Translations under genes and position numbers: made by a program
Origin: Chryseobacterium sp. ON_d1
GTDB lineage: Bacteria > Bacteroidota > Bacteroidia > Flavobacteriales > Weeksellaceae
Direction of reading: 5' to 3'
DNA length: 64,000 nucleotides
Assembly: GCF_006829085.1 (NCBI RefSeq)
Contig: NZ_BJTC01000003.1
Span: forward strand, 310,001 to 374,000
Notes under the pieces: model-generated
Database searches by the model: none
Seen by the model: only the letters and a program-made list of their open reading frames with translations
What the model was told of the DNA's origin: nothing
In this document: piece after piece, positions 6,001 to 52,976 of the stretch
Layout: the number at the start of each line of letters is the position of its first letter
How positions within the stretch are numbered: the first letter of the stretch is position 1

Positions 6001-7019
6001 TTGGTATCCATTACCAGAGACTTTGCAGACTCTCCTTTCAATAAGGATAAAGCGACAAATGGTAAAGCTCCGGCATCAGCAACTGCATTGGCAAATAAAG
6101 GAACATCACTTACGCGGGTCATAGGACCTTGGGCGATAGGATAATCTAAACCCAGTTCCTGAGCCATCGGATTACCTTTATCAATTACCTTCAGCGCCTT
6201 TGCCTGCTTCAAATGTCCATACATGGCTTCTTTGAATCCGAAAATCATTTTTTTCAGCGTCCTGAAGTCTTCATACAGGTCTGTTGCAAGTGAAATGTCC
6301 TGTCCCATAGGAATGTAGCATGTACTCAGGTTCAGTCCTTTAAAGTACTGTTTCAGATCTTCAGCGGTAACATTTTCTGGCAACAAAGGAGAGTTTGGTC
6401 TTACCAGCACCCGATGGTTGGCGATTATCTTAGTTTCTGTACCATTCAGTTTTGAGCATACATCCTTCAGTTCCTGGGGAACTGAGCTTTCAGGGAACAA
6501 AGCCAGCTGGCTGTCCAGTACTACTCCTGCAGCACCTAATGCTTTAGATGCAGCGGCAGTATGGAGACCTATTCCTCCCTGTACCCACACCGGAATACTC
6601 TGTATTTCTTTGATCACACGCTGAAATAATACAAACGTGGATTCATAACCTACCCATCCGCCAGCTTCATTCCCCTTAATAATAATTCCTTCTGCTCCGG
6701 ATTGTTCAGCCTGTCTGGCTTCTTCCACACTGCTTACCTGATAAACAGCAGGCAGATGAGAAGGCCCGGAAATTCCGCATGGAAGAATCGCAAACCTGAC
6801 TTTTTCAGGAATTTGCAGGGTAGTGAAATTGTTGTTAGAAAAATAAATACCATAGGATGGTACGTCTATCTGATCAAGTTGATGTAACGCTTCCTGGGCA
6901 GTTGTCAGCTCGTCACCTAGACTCAGGACGGGAAATGCACCCGCCTGATGTAGTTTAAGCATAAGGTTAACGTCAGGTTTTTCGAATGGCGTTAGTCCAA
7001 TAATGGTTAAGTTTTTCAT
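1..7019 (-). CDS. Type I polyketide / PUFA-like synthase (5' part; runs off window)
   Basis: Multidomain megasynthase, at least 2339 codons, with its C-terminus outside the window. Order seen: TIM-barrel nitronate-monooxygenase-like domain (about 1-280, GGWVGYES); a second such barrel (about 315-600, ECGGHVGP), like the PfaD enoyl reductase; ketosynthase (about 640-1080) with active-site DAACASS near 825 and the two later His motifs (EAHGTGT, GHTKCAAG); acyltransferase with GHSYGE near 1271; two acyl carrier domains near 1678 and 1793, both with DLEADLSIDSIKR; ketoreductase from about 2065 with GGAQGI and YAAAN. The tandem ACPs, KS-AT order and PfaD-like barrels resemble PUFA/secondary-lipid synthases, so the product is probably a reduced polyketide or unusual fatty acid (inference). 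Start chosen at the Met of MKNLTIIG; in-frame ATGs at 7055 and further upstream are possible. Confidence 0.9.
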   Translation of the reverse strand, partial: MKNLTIIGLTPFEKPDVNLMLKLHQAGAFPVLSLGDELTTAQEALHQLDQIDVPSYGIYFSNNNFTTLQIPEKVRFAILPCGISGPSHLPAVYQVSSVEEARQAEQSGAEGIIIKGNEAGGWVGYESTFVLFQRVIKEIQSIPVWVQGGIGLHTAAASKALGAAGVVLDSQLALFPESSVPQELKDVCSKLNGTETKIIANHRVLVRPNSPLLPENVTAEDLKQYFKGLNLSTCYIPMGQDISLATDLYEDFRTLKKMIFGFKEAMYGHLKQAKALKVIDKGNPMAQELGLDYPIAQGPMTRVSDVPLFANAVADAGALPFVALSLLKGESAKSLVMDTKKLAGEKTWGVGILGFAPQELRDEQTSYILEAKPPVVLIAGGRPAQAKIFEKAGIKSFLHVPSPALLDIFLKEGAKNFIFEGRECGGHVGPLSSMVLWEKQIERILKEDHPENISVFFAGGIHNAFSTAFVSIMAAPLAARGVKVGVLMGTAYLYTHEAVQTGAIQEEFQSQAMQAKDTVLLETAPGHETRCLNTAFAHHFNTEKAKLLAAGMDKKEVWEQLEKLNVGRLRIAAKGIERQGDKLVNIPKDDQLDLGMYMIGQVATMHNRVISLAALHQNITDNYEYIQNAALPEKPVSTEKPLDIAIVGMECIFPGAKNLDEYWRNIILGKDSVTEVPDERWNKELYYHPDSDGPDVSHSKWGGFIPKIDFDPLAFGIPPQSLAAIEPTQLLTLLVAKRAMEDAGYGEKHINRENISVIIGAEGGNDLANSYSFRGYYKQVFGEIHEEVKEAFPHTTEDSFPGILANVIAGRITNRLDLGGRNFTVDAACASSLAAIDLACQELVLGKSDMVLAGGADLHNGINDYLMFSSTHALSRKGRCATFDSDADGIALGEGIAILVLKRYEDAINDGDRIYSVIKGVGGSSDGKALGLTAPRKIGQVRALERAYTQAGISPASVGLVEAHGTGTVVGDKTELSALTNLFSRSGALPGQTHLGSVKTQIGHTKCAAGLAGLIKASLAVYHGVKPPTLHLQQPNAYYNAGTSPFAFHSESGLWSEKNRYAGISAFGFGGTNFHTVIANHPKQDNSIAMQSWPSELFVFRGDTYEEAKEQSGQIKTLLEINDGIPLQDIAYSLSISSEKPIQFSIVADTVEDLMMKLELVLLGIETKDTFTVNKKEGKVAFTFPGQGSQRINMARDLFVVFPAMRKLLDEYPDLEKVIFPSKTFNEADLKQQKETIRDTRLAQPLLGIVDLALAKFLESLGIIPDMLAGHSYGELPALCFAGVFGEDKLVDLSVKRAQSILDSVEGGDPGSMLAASATPERLQPVIAKVEGCYPVNFNAPTQCVIAGSTEAINKLLEMLKQEGISAKKLEVACAFHSPLLAKSKELYAEVLKDIPFGEMQIPVWSNTTAQVYPENPYEIKERLTDHLVQPVRFVEQLQAMYNDGARIFIEVGPGKVLTGLTKSCLEKDQLTLYVEDNSHNKFSHLLCMLAQYLGTGRSFNIDKLFDGRNVKVIDLNQPELYKKSPAIWRVNGQTAHPTTGNLPSNGAPPLINPIPMNNFTTTHQAPAAEAQSTAERMLQEYLNSMKLMIQAQRDVMLSFMGQNPQAFPAPVYNSPVPAPAHQPVSAIPVQPVQQEKPAVASIQQAPSRDIKSLLLQVVSDKTGYPQEMLGMEMDLEADLSIDSIKRVEIIGTLRNELGTLGNGNTSEDTVMEQLAGIKTLSGLVSWLTEFSGTETSATPEKKGSATESTVSKSQSQPAFSLEDLQNAILNIVSEKTGYPKEMLGLDLDLEADLSIDSIKRMEIISDLKTKIGFGQNLEQADDVMEKLAAIKTLRGLASWISEMNGETNDAAQKVKEKNTTEPTQNILSRLRFDITPTDASLVQNTEVLNGKRFAITQDDSKQTSAIKEALEKHGAIVELADTEKDLSDIDGLIMLDLFSATDKPSIIDHVDLIKKLDFDKAKWVYLISDIPAHLQEITDASILRHHQGYPGLFKSLAREFDNTTCRLISLNTPQEVDQIAEITLKEILTNDKPVEIIYKNDQRHKVDIIPSPLSTSLNEAHIQLDQKSVVLVLGGAQGITAELVKHMSQAYPCTYILVGRSADPRNELSAKDFEGMKTKEEIRGFLIKSGQFTSPAEIEKETTKIFKNNQILRTIRDMEELGNTIIYQSLDLCDEEGLSHLISHIYEKYNRLDGVIHGAGLLEDKLFKQKTISSFGRVFDTKVKPLRVLAEQLRSDCQFVVLFSSIASVYGNKGQTDYAAANSVLDDYANALNKRLKGKVISINWGPWKGAGMVSSTLESEYERRGISMIPLDEGKEIFLNEIKYGTESQVLIMSGNN

Positions 7020-7200
7020 GGCGTGATAATTATTGAATGATGGCAAGAGATTCATAACAAAGTGCTGGGCCTTTCGGTAATAAGACCCCATGCTTTTCAT
7101 TATGATATAATAAAATTGGTTTTTGTTAAATCGTTAACGAAATGTATCGTTTTGTGATAACTCATCAATAATTTGTTATTCTTCAATAACTTATTAGATG

Positions 7201-7301
7201 TAAGTTTAATGTCCGGCTTTTCAAAGGGCATTAGCCTGATTTTACTCAAGTTTTTCATAGCATTTACGGTATTGAATAGTTGGTAATATATCATAACAAA
7301 A
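7201..7301 (-). pseudogene. Degraded duplicate of the synthase 5' end
   Basis: This stretch aligns without gaps to 6962-7062, which spans the start codon of the neighbouring synthase, at an offset of 239 bp and about two-thirds identity (67 of 101 counted by eye). The copied peptide starts MKNLSKIRLMPFEKPDIKL against MKNLTIIGLTPFEKPDVNL in the gene, then loses similarity and stops. It is a partial tandem duplication or the last trace of a second synthase gene. Confidence 0.75.
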
Positions 7302-49176: not shown

Positions 49177-49986
49177 TCAGTCCCATCCTTTCACAGCACC
49201 TCCTTTGAAAATTTCTTTGGCTTTCTTTTCCACTTCAGGAGACTCATAGGCTTTTACAAAGTTTTTTACTTTCTGACTGTTTTTATTATCCTGTCTTGCC
49301 ACGACTACATTCACATAAGGAGAGTCTTTATCTTCGACAAGGATGCCTTGCTTTTCCTGATCCAAACCGGCCTGTGCAGCAAAATTATTATTGATCACCC
49401 CTACAACAACATCTCTGTCATCCAGAACCCTTGGAATCTGGGCTCCTTCAATTTCCATAATTTTCAGCTGCTTCGGATTTTCTGTAATATCAGTTACCTT
49501 TGGAAGAAGTCCAACGCCTGCTTTTAATTTCAATAACCCGTTTTTCTGCAACAGAAGCAAAGAACGCCCTCCGTTGGTAGGATCATTGGGAATAACAATC
49601 GTGCTGCCGTTCTGGAGCTCGCTAATATTTTTAATCTTTTTTGAATAGGCCACAATAGGGTACACAAATGTATTTCCCACAGGAACAAGGTTATAACCTC
49701 TCTGCTTGGACTGTTCCGTTAAGTAAGGAATATGCTGGAATGCATTGGCGTCAATATCTCCGTTGGTCAAAGCTTCATTGGGAACTACATAATCATTAAA
49801 AGGAATAAGTTCCACTTCCAGGTTGTATTTATCTTTTGCTACTTTTTTTGCCACTTCAGCAATTTCCTGCTCAGGACCATAAGTGATTCCCACACGAATA
49901 AAATTCGGGTCATCTTTTCTTCCCGAACAGGCACTGAACAGTAATATCCCCGCAGCCAATAAACCAAAAATTTTTATTCTTTTCAT
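49177..49986 (-). CDS. metQ: Methionine ABC transporter substrate-binding lipoprotein
   Basis: 269 residues of NlpA/MetQ family. Lipoprotein signal GILLFSACSGRKD with the lipidated Cys near residue 20. Family motifs: IRVGITYGPEQEIAEVAKKVAK, ANAFQHIPYLTEQ, IVIPNDPTNGGRSLLLLQ. Binds D- or L-methionine in the periplasm and hands it to the MetNI complex. Last gene of the operon; the 78-bp gap to metI contains a tract of the GAGAGTTTGAG-like repeat, and the terminator follows about 115 bp downstream. Confidence 0.95.
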   Translation of the reverse strand: MKRIKIFGLLAAGILLFSACSGRKDDPNFIRVGITYGPEQEIAEVAKKVAKDKYNLEVELIPFNDYVVPNEALTNGDIDANAFQHIPYLTEQSKQRGYNLVPVGNTFVYPIVAYSKKIKNISELQNGSTIVIPNDPTNGGRSLLLLQKNGLLKLKAGVGLLPKVTDITENPKQLKIMEIEGAQIPRVLDDRDVVVGVINNNFAAQAGLDQEKQGILVEDKDSPYVNVVVARQDNKNSQKVKNFVKAYESPEVEKKAKEIFKGGAVKGWD

Positions 49987-50064: not shown

Positions 50065-50721
50065 TTACCTGTGGTCAAATCTTTTGGACAGCCTGTCACC
50101 CATAAACTGAATGATGAATACCAGGAGTACCAGTAATATCAGTACTGTATTCATAATAACAATATCATACCCGATATATCCGTACTGGTAGCCCACCTGC
50201 CCAAGTCCTCCGGCACCTACGGCTCCCCCCATTGCTGAGTATCCTACAAGGGTAATCAAAGTGATGGTGGCATTGTTGATTAATGAAGGAAGTGCTTCAG
50301 GAAGCAAAACTTTTCTGATAATCTGTAACGGAGAAGCTCCCAGCGCTCTCGCAGTCTCTATAAGCCCGTGAGGAACTTCAATAAGACTGTTCTCCACAAG
50401 TCGTGCAATAAAAGGAGCGGCTCCCACACTTAGCGGAACCAAAGCTGCATTCACTCCGATAGATGTTCCTGCCAGAACTCTGGTAAAAGGAATCATCCAG
50501 ACGATTAGAATAATAAAAGGGATGGCACGGAAGATATTAACGATGATGGAAAGTCCTCTATGATAGAAAGTGTTTTCCAGCAACTGGCCTTTTCTGGTTA
50601 AAAATAGCAGAATTCCTACCGGAAGTCCCAGTACAAAACCAAAAAAGCCGGACAAAAATGTCATATAAACCGTTTCCCAGGTTCCTTTTGCCAAAAGGGC
50701 AATTACCGCGTCACTAAGCAT
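50065..50721 (-). CDS. metI: Methionine ABC transporter permease
   Basis: 218 residues, inner membrane, five hydrophobic segments. The permease signature EAA loop is seen in GLIETARALGASPLQIIRKVLLPEALP. The ending GGLGQVGYQYGYIGYD ... VLLVFIIQFMGDRL is typical of MetI. Forms the channel with MetN. Its start overlaps metN by 8 bp, which indicates translational coupling. Confidence 0.95.
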   Translation of the reverse strand: MLSDAVIALLAKGTWETVYMTFLSGFFGFVLGLPVGILLFLTRKGQLLENTFYHRGLSIIVNIFRAIPFIILIVWMIPFTRVLAGTSIGVNAALVPLSVGAAPFIARLVENSLIEVPHGLIETARALGASPLQIIRKVLLPEALPSLINNATITLITLVGYSAMGGAVGAGGLGQVGYQYGYIGYDIVIMNTVLILLVLLVFIIQFMGDRLSKRFDHR

Positions 50722-51742
50722 ATCCTTTTACTGTATTTTGAATTTTATTTTGATTGAAATAATAGATCGCCTGCTGGTTTTCTTCTGTTCCTCCCTGGAG
50801 CTGCAGCAGAAGTTTACCGAAATTGGAATTTCCGAAGTATTCTACGTCGGCTTTTAAAAGTTTATAAGGGATTTTAAATTGATTATATAGCGCCGAAAGA
50901 ATTTGTTCAACGCTGATATTTTCGTTAAGTTCTATCTCTACCAGCGGAAATAGACCGTCTTTCGGTTCTTTCTGCAGTCTGGTAATGAGTTCCTGCGGCA
51001 GGGTCATGATATCTGAATTTATAAATTGGCGGATAATCGGGTTTTCTCTGTCCGAGATAATCTCGCTTAATGTACCTTTTGTTAATAATTTTCCTTTGTC
51101 GATCACTGCAACGTGGTTGCATACCGATTTGATCACTTCCATTTCGTGGGTAATTAAAAGGATGGTAATTCCCAATCTCTGATTGATATCTCTTAAAAGC
51201 TGGAGAATAGACTGTGTAGTTGCCGGATCCAAAGCACTGGTGGCTTCGTCACAAAGAAGAAGATAAGGATCATTGGCCAGGGCCCTTGCAATAGCTACCC
51301 TTTGTTTTTGTCCCCCGGATAGGCTCTTGGGATAATCGTTGGCTTTATCTTCAAGTCCTACAATCTTCAGTAATTCATTGACCTTTTTGTTAATCTGATC
51401 TTTATTGTTGTGATCCAGCTCCAAAGGAAGCGCTACATTATCAAAAACAGTTCTTGAAGAAAGAAGGTTGAAATGCTGGAAGATCATTCCTATTTTTTTA
51501 CGTTCCTCAGCCAGTTGCTGGGAACTGAGTGTAGTAAAATCTTTTCCGTTAATAATGATCTGTCCCTCATCCGGTCTTTCCAATAGATTCACGGTACGGA
51601 TCAGGGTACTTTTTCCTGCACCCGAAAACCCGATAATTCCCACAATATCTCCTTTTTCTATAGTAAGACTCACCTTATCCAATGCCTTAAAAGACTGTTT
51701 TTTCTGGTGGAATGTTTTTGATATGTTTCTGATTTCTATCAT
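50714..51742 (-). CDS. metN: Methionine ABC transporter ATPase
   Basis: 342 residues. Walker A GFSGAGKST, Q-loop in GMIFQHFNLL, signature LSGGQKQRVAIARAL, Walker B LLLCDEATSALD, H-switch LITHEME. The C-terminal about 100 residues (EIELNENISVEQILSALYNQF) form the NIL domain that binds methionine and inhibits transport when the cell is replete. 18 bp after the EamA gene and overlapping metI by 8 bp, so it is part of a four-gene operon. Confidence 0.96.
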   Translation of the reverse strand: MIEIRNISKTFHQKKQSFKALDKVSLTIEKGDIVGIIGFSGAGKSTLIRTVNLLERPDEGQIIINGKDFTTLSSQQLAEERKKIGMIFQHFNLLSSRTVFDNVALPLELDHNNKDQINKKVNELLKIVGLEDKANDYPKSLSGGQKQRVAIARALANDPYLLLCDEATSALDPATTQSILQLLRDINQRLGITILLITHEMEVIKSVCNHVAVIDKGKLLTKGTLSEIISDRENPIIRQFINSDIMTLPQELITRLQKEPKDGLFPLVEIELNENISVEQILSALYNQFKIPYKLLKADVEYFGNSNFGKLLLQLQGGTEENQQAIYYFNQNKIQNTVKGYA

Positions 51743-51760
51743 TCTGATTTTATATACTGC

Positions 51761-52759
51761 TTAAATAGGCTGATAGGGTCTGCCTGTTCTGTTTAAAAAT
51801 CTTCTTATTCTTCTGATTTTGACCTTCGACCGTTTTGAAAGTTTGAAATACTTGGTCACATTTGTTAGAAGTACTCCCAGCAATATGATGAACAAACCAT
51901 AAAGCTGACCTCCATTGATGCTTTGATGAGCAACAACCCAGCCTGCAATCACTGTTACGATAGGATTGATATAGGTGTGAGTGCTTACCAAAGCAGCGGG
52001 TTTTACGGACAAGAGCCAAATGTACGACAAATAAGCGACTATCGATCCAAAGAAGATCAAAAATAGAACCCCGGACCATGCAGATAACGGAACCGAAGAA
52101 ACTGAAAAACCTGTCCATTCTTTTCTGAAAAAAGCGATCAAAAAAGATGCTAATCCCGCTACTATAAGCTGTTGGGCAATATTCATAAAGGTAGATTGTG
52201 ACGCCGGATTTTTCTTTGAATATAAAGAACCAAGCACCCATGCAATAGAACTTAATCCCAAAACCACAAATGCAGTAATGCGGAGATTTCCGTCAACGGC
52301 TGCATGGGCTTCATTAGCGTGTACGCTGCCTTTTAAAAAGAGTACCAGCCCTACAAAACCAATAACCAATCCTATAGGAATAAACTTATCTGAAAAATAA
52401 TACTTCCAGTTCTTTCTGTCGATGGCAATAAACCAGAACGGTCCGGTTGCAATAGAAATTGCAGCTTCAGAAGCCGTTACATATTGTTCTCCCCAGGCAA
52501 CAAGACCGGTTCCTCCGGTAAGGATAAGAATACCGGTAATTGCATTTTTCTTCCAGTTGATCAGAGAGTTTGGTTTTTCTCCTTTAGAAAGAAGATATCC
52601 GATCATCAGAATTCCGGCCACCAGAAATCTTAATCCCGAAAGAATGAATGGCGGAAAACCTTTCAAGCCAAATGAAATAGCTAAAAACGTAATTCCCCAT
52701 ATCACATAGATGTTTGTAAACGCCAATGGAATCAACCATTTGTTTTTAGAATTGCTCAT
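51761..52759 (-). CDS. EamA/DMT-family permease
   Basis: 332 residues with ten hydrophobic segments in two EamA halves (FTNIYVIWGITFLAISFGL at the start; VVLGLSSIAWVLGSLYSKK in the second half), and a basic cytosolic tail (KLSKRSKVKIRRIRRFLNRTG). Drug/metabolite transporters of this group export amino acids or other metabolites. First gene of the eamA-metNIQ operon and directly behind the attenuator, so its substrate is likely connected with methionine or sulfur metabolites (inference). 18 bp before metN. Confidence 0.88.
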   Translation of the reverse strand: MSNSKNKWLIPLAFTNIYVIWGITFLAISFGLKGFPPFILSGLRFLVAGILMIGYLLSKGEKPNSLINWKKNAITGILILTGGTGLVAWGEQYVTASEAAISIATGPFWFIAIDRKNWKYYFSDKFIPIGLVIGFVGLVLFLKGSVHANEAHAAVDGNLRITAFVVLGLSSIAWVLGSLYSKKNPASQSTFMNIAQQLIVAGLASFLIAFFRKEWTGFSVSSVPLSAWSGVLFLIFFGSIVAYLSYIWLLSVKPAALVSTHTYINPIVTVIAGWVVAHQSINGGQLYGLFIILLGVLLTNVTKYFKLSKRSKVKIRRIRRFLNRTGRPYQPI

Positions 52760-52792
52760 TTTTATGTTTTTAATGTTGTTGTGTTCAATGAA

Positions 52793-52820
52793 AAAGGCTC
52801 TACCATGTGGTAAAGCCTTT
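52793..52820 (-). terminator. Leader terminator (attenuator stem)
   Basis: On the minus strand AAAGGCTTTACC / GGTAGAGCCTTT with an ACAT loop, followed by a run of five T residues, 33 bp before the eamA start. It is intrinsic-terminator-like yet inside the leader. Confidence 0.82.
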
Positions 52821-52855
52821 GAAAATATGTCTAAATAAAAGTAAGGTCAACCACA
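52806..52855 (-). promoter_or_regulatory. Antiterminator pairing
   Basis: The segment read TGTGGTTGACCTT on the minus strand (complement of 52843-52855) can pair with AAGGCTTTACCACA (complement of 52806-52819): TGTGGT/ACCACA and CCTT/AAGG. The second segment is the 5' arm and loop of the terminator, so the two structures exclude each other. The first segment contains the last two codons and the stop codon of the leader peptide. Confidence 0.7.
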
Positions 52856-52894
52856 GTATTCTTGATGTATAGGCATACACATATCCTTCATCAT
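52847..52894 (-). CDS. Methionine-rich leader peptide MMKDMCMPIHQEYCG
   Basis: 15 codons and TGA. Four of the first seven codons are Met (positions 1, 2, 5, 7), with Cys at 6 and 14. It ends 27 bp before the terminator stem of the eamA-metNIQ operon, and its last codons form one arm of an antiterminator. This is the layout of a translation-coupled attenuator: scarce Met-tRNA would stall the ribosome early, leave the antiterminator arm free and allow read-through; finished translation would cover it and let the terminator form. No Shine-Dalgarno is evident, as usual in this group. Expression is not proven. Confidence 0.65.
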   Translation of the reverse strand: MMKDMCMPIHQEYCG

Positions 52895-52968
52895 ATTTTT
52901 GATGGTATGTTTTTTTATTGAATTATTTAATTCTGCCTTCATTTTGCTTTATTTCCTGAATACGGTTG

Positions 52969-52976
52969 CAAATATA
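52969..52976 (-). promoter_or_regulatory. -7 box of the met leader (TATATTTG)
   Basis: On the minus strand TATATTTG followed by C fits TAnnTTTG, about 75 bp upstream of the leader peptide start. No good -33 TTG at 19 bp; instead an inverted repeat occupies that place. Confidence 0.6.

Follow-up and report, generated by a model that had tools for sequence, protein, structure and literature searches.

A probable ribosome-mediated attenuator with a methionine- and cysteine-rich leader peptide in front of methionine uptake genes in Chryseobacterium and related Bacteroidota

The window analysed here is a stretch of 64,000 nucleotides from Chryseobacterium sp. ON_d1 (contig NZ_BJTC01000003.1, positions 310,001 to 374,000). 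On its minus strand a promoter-like motif is followed by a short open reading frame, an intrinsic terminator and four genes in the order eamA-metN-metI-metQ, with eamA beginning about 35 nt past the terminator. The features of the locus are:

52969..52976, minus strand: TAnnTTTG promoter element TATATTTG, assigned by motif match
52847..52942, minus strand: leader peptide frame of 31 codons plus TGA, MKAELNNSIKKHTIKNMMKDMCMPIHQEYCG, from the ATG at 52942 to the TGA at 52847
52874..52894, minus strand: putative control codons 17-23, ATG ATG AAG GAT ATG TGT ATG (Met Met.. Met Cys Met)
52843..52855, minus strand: 5' half of the predicted antiterminator, S1, consisting of TGTGGT (the last two codons) and CCTT past the stop
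52806..52819, minus strand: 3' half of the predicted antiterminator, AAGG and ACCACA, in the 5' arm and loop of the terminator
52791..52820, minus strand: intrinsic terminator with a 12-pair stem, loop ACAT and T-run, -16.9 kcal/mol
51761..52759, minus strand: eamA, EamA-family transporter (closest NCBIfam model YedA, below its cut-off)
50714..51742, minus strand: metN, methionine ABC transporter ATPase with NIL domain (TIGR02314, 444.8 bits, below the cut-off of 499.7)
50065..50721, minus strand: metI, methionine ABC transporter permease (NF008049, over cut-off)
49177..49986, minus strand: metQ, methionine-binding lipoprotein (NF008285, over cut-off)

The arms of the terminator stem occupy 52820-52809 and 52804-52793, with the T-run at 52795-52791; a simple pattern scan for terminators did not pick this structure up. 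In 63 of 71 loci, mostly from Chryseobacterium, the TAnnTTTG motif, which we take to be of the Bacteroidota -7 type, is found no more than 70 nt 5' of the leader ATG, as against 0.044 in shuffled sequence, and in 57 of those 63 loci the distance to the ATG is 24-27 nt. Several features of the attenuator class are thus present at the locus: a short frame between a promoter, recognised by motif alone, and the operon, an intrinsic terminator before the first gene, and a frame rich in codons (Met, Cys) for amino acids that are tied to the downstream metNIQ genes.

A preceding sequence-only reading of the window had described a frame of 15 codons starting with the ATG at 52894 (MMKDMCMPIHQEYCG followed by the stop at 52849-52847). 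This start and stop are real, but they delimit only the 3' half of the leader, which we take to have 31 codons because the frame is open for 16 codons further up to the ATG at 52942 and the frames of relatives begin at the corresponding position. The same reading placed the frame 27 bp before the terminator, which agrees with the 26 nt counted from stop to stem, or 27-28 nt without the outer A-T pairs. The pairings it proposed between the end of the frame and the terminator are correct (TGTGGT, 52855-52850, with ACCACA, 52811-52806, and CCTT, 52846-52843, with AAGG, 52819-52816), its methionine uptake operon is borne out for metNIQ by family models, and the SAM riboswitch that it did not see is indeed absent from the locus, an Rfam search giving no RF00162 match in the window. 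Its description of the signal as Met-rich was right with regard to codons 17, 18, 21 and 23 and too narrow in that Cys (codon 22) is part of the signal as well.

Conservation was assessed in 80 related eamA loci kept from an EamA search of genome contigs, with a rule that asks for an ATG frame of 12-60 codons containing at least four Met plus Cys, with no more than 60 nt from its stop to the chosen hairpin. The rule was satisfied in 74 of the 80 loci. For the six others, leaders are apparent by inspection in L063, L072 and L075, L060 is cut by a contig end, and L077 and L078 have no leader either by rule or by inspection; none was found in four more distant EamA loci (L098-L101, 36-46% identity). 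The frame is open in all 64 Chryseobacterium-type loci (L060 left out), with a pooled, uncorrected pN/pS of 0.52. The averages for these 64 leaders, per 32 residues, are 4.5 Met (the start not counted) and 2.2 Cys, and the spacer 3' of the stop measures 24 to 30 nt. Chryseobacterium leaders have a common core such as MMMYCCMPM, relatives often read MMMxCCMPM or CCC, and some Flavobacterium leaders read, for example, MKTLHHNEMCHKSCRCMKMRLCCC. A Met/Cys leader is also present in record CP034120.1, which is titled Glaciecola amylolytica and whose eamA-metNIQ genes share 72-80% identity with those of the window; either the record is mislabelled or the locus was transferred.

The leader is also linked to metNIQ operons without eamA. 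MetI is rare, being present in 7 of 395 genomes of a class sample, 59 of 395 of an order sample and 84 of 197 of a family sample, and the samples overlap. In the class sample, all five metNIQ operons without a preceding eamA (L091-L095) possess Met/Cys leaders, that of L095 by inspection, while L096 is truncated by the end of its contig. Forty further metNIQ regions, mostly outside the window's genus, were taken from the overlapping family and order genomes with metI; L205, L207 and L208 are near-duplicates, the leader of L209 is that of L080, and L220 and L221 come from the window's genus. The strict rule detected a leader in 13 of the 40. With a relaxed rule, set after the strict-rule results had been seen, at least five Met plus Cys precede a hairpin in 17 of 40 regions and at least four in 20 of 40; the background, scored by the same relaxed rule, yields 0 of 732 genes with at least five and 2 of 732 with at least four before a terminator-like hairpin. 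The 732 genes of this background are ATG frames that run to 250 codons or more and have 330 nt of upstream sequence; a hairpin was found in 165 of them. For relatives as well as background, the frame richest in Met plus Cys was always picked. Of the 45 metNIQ regions, 20 fall short of four Met plus Cys under the relaxed rule. Inspection revealed nothing leader-like in 14 of the 45 (L189, L190, L196-L198, L200-L202, L204, L210-L214), and the leaders of L191, L192, L203, L215, L217 and L219 are doubtful. In view of these leaderless regions the element is to be regarded as common, not universal. The sequence-only reading had named conservation in relatives as the way to check its proposal of ribosome-mediated attenuation: Met codons and alternative pairing do recur, which supports the proposed logic by sequence comparison, but some metNIQ-bearing genera lack them.

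Some of these loci have peculiarities of their own. Tandem leader-terminator units, which we count in favour of attenuation, are present in L094 (5870-6300, before metN) and L097 (3250-3690, before eamA). The regions L191-L195 and L215-L219, all from one genus, have short, often Cys-rich frames and weak AT-rich terminators, and in several of them an extra inverted repeat flanking the frame is visible by eye, e.g., AACACTAT / ATAGTGTG. In two genomes, metI is represented by a pair of overlapping matches (G470:C1:2102670-2103318 and G839:C84:23073-23724).

Within the window's own genome, chance expectation was derived from 1,661,423 bases (the window plus 80 stretches, 1.66 of 5.40 Mb) containing 900 terminator-like hairpins. 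Fifteen of these hairpins are preceded by a short ATG frame in which Met plus Cys number four or more, and nine by one with five or more, the window element included; the other eight of the nine resemble the ends of genes, precursors of bacteriocin type or frames arising by chance. In a smaller pilot scan, 9 of 231 hairpins were preceded by a frame with at least four Met plus Cys. No second Met/Cys leader was recognised in the 1.66 of 5.40 Mb covered.

Since the 3' half of the antiterminator lies inside the 5' arm and loop of the terminator, the two structures are mutually exclusive. How well S1 pairs with the arm of its own terminator was evaluated in 45 leaders, a subset of those found in which 13 of Chryseobacterium type were kept. 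The mean is -11.41 kcal/mol, compared with -8.34 kcal/mol for dinucleotide-shuffled S1, and 0 of 500 shuffles were as low. With a single leader per clade (n = 19, the representatives L079 and L187 being among the best pairers of their clades) the values are -12.29 and -9.10, again with 0 of 500 as low. The difference between native and partner-swapped pairing amounts to -4.17; shuffling of S1 reduces it to -1.39 (0 of 150). A further feature of the attenuator class, an exclusive antiterminator that beats shuffled sequence across clades, is hence present. When the clade representatives are tested singly, 7 of 19 fall below 0.05, and pairing is weak in the Flavobacterium-type eamA leaders L070 and L073-L076 (0.24-0.49). 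Plain swap tests resulted in z values of -7.1 (29 leaders), -6.1 (21 leaders) and -9.5 (45 leaders); as a reversed-S1 control reached -4.8, part of this signal is base composition and the plain swap is not our main evidence. Terminator arms were placed by eye in L095, L184, L186, L193, L195 and L203 and in several leaders of the 29- and 21-leader swap tests.

Covariation was counted in fixed columns. For the antiterminator in 54 Chryseobacterium sequences, 90.0% of cells are paired, compared with 89.9% after shuffling, and 0 pairs changed on both sides, the columns varying little. The terminator in Chryseobacterium has 28 two-sided cells, and 0 of 500 shuffles were as high. Judged by eye and after the fact, the register of the antiterminator pairing seems to vary between subclades (GGT/ACC, GGA/TCT or GGG/CCC for Gly codon versus arm), and a fixed-column count is unable to follow a pairing that shifts in this way.

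Taken together, comparison of sequences makes it very likely that uptake of sulfur amino acids is controlled here by ribosome-mediated transcription attenuation, with the supply of charged Met- and Cys-tRNA as the signal; most of the sequence tests favour this reading, and the covariation count for the antiterminator within the genus lends it no additional weight. The transcript would begin about 20 nt before the 31-codon frame, as judged from the promoter element. With ample Met and Cys, the ribosome would reach the stop codon and cover S1, the terminator would form and eamA-metNIQ would be off. When charged Met- or Cys-tRNA is short, we infer that the ribosome would stall at codons 17-23 and leave S1 free; S1 would then capture the 5' arm of the terminator before the 3' arm is made, and RNA polymerase would read through. 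This scheme presupposes that transcription and translation are coupled in Bacteroidota. In the window leader the pairing of S1 with the arm amounts to -9.4 kcal/mol when the 3' arm is left out, as compared with -16.9 kcal/mol for the terminator. The latter is thermodynamically stronger, so that read-through would need kinetic trapping.

The RNA of 75 leaders, mostly from Chryseobacterium, was folded up to the start of the 3' arm. The best S1 bases pair with the arm with a median probability of 0.99, both in untranslated RNA and with the ribosome masking the RNA up to the last control codon, and S1 pairs with upstream sequence with a median probability of 0.37, indicating some competition. Among 18 leaders viewed individually, L054, L066, L067, L074, L076, L079 and L081 do not fully conform in one or both states. 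As no dominant hairpin hides S1 in the untranslated RNA, failed initiation on the leader is predicted to give read-through as well. Met shortage would slow initiation too, which we count against the attenuator; read-through without translation would, on the other hand, suit a methionine sensor.

The same layout could also work with a ribosome that is stalled by its nascent peptide upon binding of a ligand, be it an amino acid (free Met or Cys), SAM or a metal like copper. Peptides rich in Met, Cys and His are able to bind metals. The CMP core of the leaders is well conserved within Chryseobacterium, and in a set of 20 leaders (two from the window's genus, start codons chosen by hand, L070 and L073 nearly identical) His and Arg reach 6.5% and 8.3%, above a long-frame background of 1.7% and 3.4%. 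In these leaders, however, 76 Cys and 74 Met account for 13.4% and 13.0% of 569 residues, compared with 0.63% and 2.14% in the long frames of the window's genome, and between genera these codons are kept while the order of residues is not. Retention of Met and Cys in a changing order fits codon-based stalling and not an arrest peptide, for which conservation of the peptide sequence across relatives would be the characteristic feature; such conservation is seen for the core in Chryseobacterium and not between genera. As most of the targets are, moreover, amino-acid transporters of unrelated families, we regard peptide-mediated arrest as quite improbable. A variant within the attenuator reading itself is that mainly Cys, or sulfur in general, is sensed, with Met being secondary, and that the operon also imports cystine or other sulfur compounds. 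Cys is enriched as much as Met and some leaders are dominated by Cys (MTGKMFCCCDLTFRIYMKK in L193), but codons 17-23 of the window leader comprise four Met and one Cys and the downstream genes are metNIQ, so this variant appears rather unlikely to us, if worth keeping in mind.

The mild purifying selection on the frame (pN/pS 0.52) would also be expected of a stand-alone gene for a small peptide with its own terminator and without a part in operon control. Such a gene would hardly explain the linkage to the operon across genera, the steady promoter spacing and the complementarity between the end of the frame and the terminator arm, and its sequence is not conserved between genera; we consider it very improbable. 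Even less credence is due to an accidental frame in an operon governed by a riboswitch of known class or by a T-box. The genome does contain three SAM-I riboswitches elsewhere, one of them preceding a gene which we take to be metX-like, but no Rfam match at gathering score was obtained in the window, and the eight matches at E up to 10 round the leader are far below their cut-offs, none being a riboswitch or T-box. At the leader itself there was no match to the SAM-I riboswitch (RF00162), to the Rfam T-box models, or to the Bacteroid-trp (RF01692) and Flavo-1 (RF01705) motifs. An Rfam search of the 14 leaderless metNIQ regions and six other loci returned two tRNAs and one SAM riboswitch, none of them before metN. 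This SAM riboswitch lies about 1.6 kb downstream of the leaderless eamA of L077 (L077, 5567-5685).

The attenuator we propose also precedes transporters other than MetNIQ. A BcaP-like permease gene follows eamA in four of six Flavobacterium loci (L073-L076 of L072-L076 and L079) as well as in L070 and in Taibaiella koreensis (L081). The assignment is based on NF053761, the best model, albeit below cut-off, in the scanned L073, L075 and L081, and on the N-termini in the others. The substrates of Lactococcus lactis BcaP are branched-chain amino acids, Met and, to some extent, Cys according to the accessible text of PMC7058034, and we count the occurrence of such permease genes behind leader and eamA in favour of the attenuator. 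L072 has an SDF symporter gene, and in L079 no same-strand gene directly follows eamA. The gene after eamA in L097 is NhaC-like without an evident link to sulfur, which counts against a sulfur-related reading. Between eamA and metNIQ, L063 carries a DUF4395 gene (6054-6518) and L069 a peroxiredoxin gene (6635-7273), each hinting at a sulfur- or thiol-related role. The shared leader suggests Met and Cys as substrates of uncharacterised EamA, BcaP-like and SDF transporters.

In simple terms, a tiny Met/Cys-rich frame and an on/off RNA hairpin precede uptake genes, which are most likely switched on by a shortage of sulfur amino acids. One and the same genome would then use SAM riboswitches alongside a probable sensor of tRNA charging for uptake. 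Whether the leaders form an undescribed class of dual Met/Cys attenuators, distributed over several Bacteroidota families and unrelated transporters (metNIQ, a BcaP-like APC permease and an SDF symporter, with or without eamA), with a three-segment layout and on by default when the leader is untranslated, is in our estimation evenly balanced. Methionine is special in that it also starts every protein, and a default-on layout, if real, would allow Met to be sensed even though Met starvation blocks initiation on the sensor. The element also offers a ready reporter for whether transcription-translation coupling in Bacteroidota is tight enough for attenuation. On contig C1 of the window's genome, a His leader, MKPTFLALHHYHHHLC, is followed by a terminator and then by a hisG-like gene (L141, 10186-10380, plus strand; TIGR00070, 45 residues, below cut-off); it has no Rfam match, and its stop region forms the pairing TAGACGG / CCGTCT at -13.0 kcal/mol. 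We count the occurrence of a His leader with the same layout in this genome as support for the attenuator reading.

Among known systems, the trp- and his-type attenuators of E. coli and Salmonella have the layout that is proposed here, with a translated leader containing control codons, an intrinsic terminator and an exclusive antiterminator. Unlike these, the window element has Met and Cys control codons, transporter genes downstream and three segments, with S1 in the last codons. In trp, the terminator forms when leader initiation is shut down (PMC1183508, accessible text), whereas folding of the Met/Cys leaders predicts read-through when the leader is untranslated. Cys codons in a short frame before a terminator also characterise the uORFC-8-2 motif in front of cysS in Rhodobacterales, for which tandem Cys codons are described and ribosome-mediated attenuation has been proposed (PMC8632094, accessible text); that motif differs from the window element in containing Cys codons only and in being alphaproteobacterial and located before cysS. 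In Mycobacterium and others, Cys leader peptides precede cys operons, and for Met operons of Actinobacteria the authors report having seen no conserved RNA structure upstream (accessible text of PMC1262725). These leaders share with ours the position of Cys codons upstream of sulfur genes; they differ, as far as that text goes, in having runs of Cys codons and in that no terminator was found. A target of the same kind is found in L. lactis, where a T-box precedes the met ABC-transporter operon (PMC7058034, accessible text). There, too, charging of tRNA-Met is read by RNA, yet by a riboswitch that senses the tRNA directly and without a leader peptide.

Closer to the window's genus, the Bacteroid-trp motif works by attenuation. 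It is listed as a cis-regulatory motif of Bacteroidetes (RF01692; accessible text of PMC2864571) and is related to trp by name; the window leader does not match it. Leader-peptide attenuation has been suggested before amino-acid biosynthesis operons of Flavobacterium psychrophilum (PMC9723704); these leaders share phylum and proposed mechanism with the element described here, and the word methionine is absent from the main text of that paper. The claim of novelty made by the sequence-only reading consequently needs to be divided. No described leader peptide for Met, and no Met/Cys leader for Bacteroidota, was found among the listed results of open-access literature searches, though Lopatovskaya 2010 or Table S7 of PMC9723704 could list one; attenuation leaders as a kind had already been suggested in flavobacteria. 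As far as we have seen, the attenuator belongs to a known kind, and it is the combined Met and Cys signal and the targets that are new.
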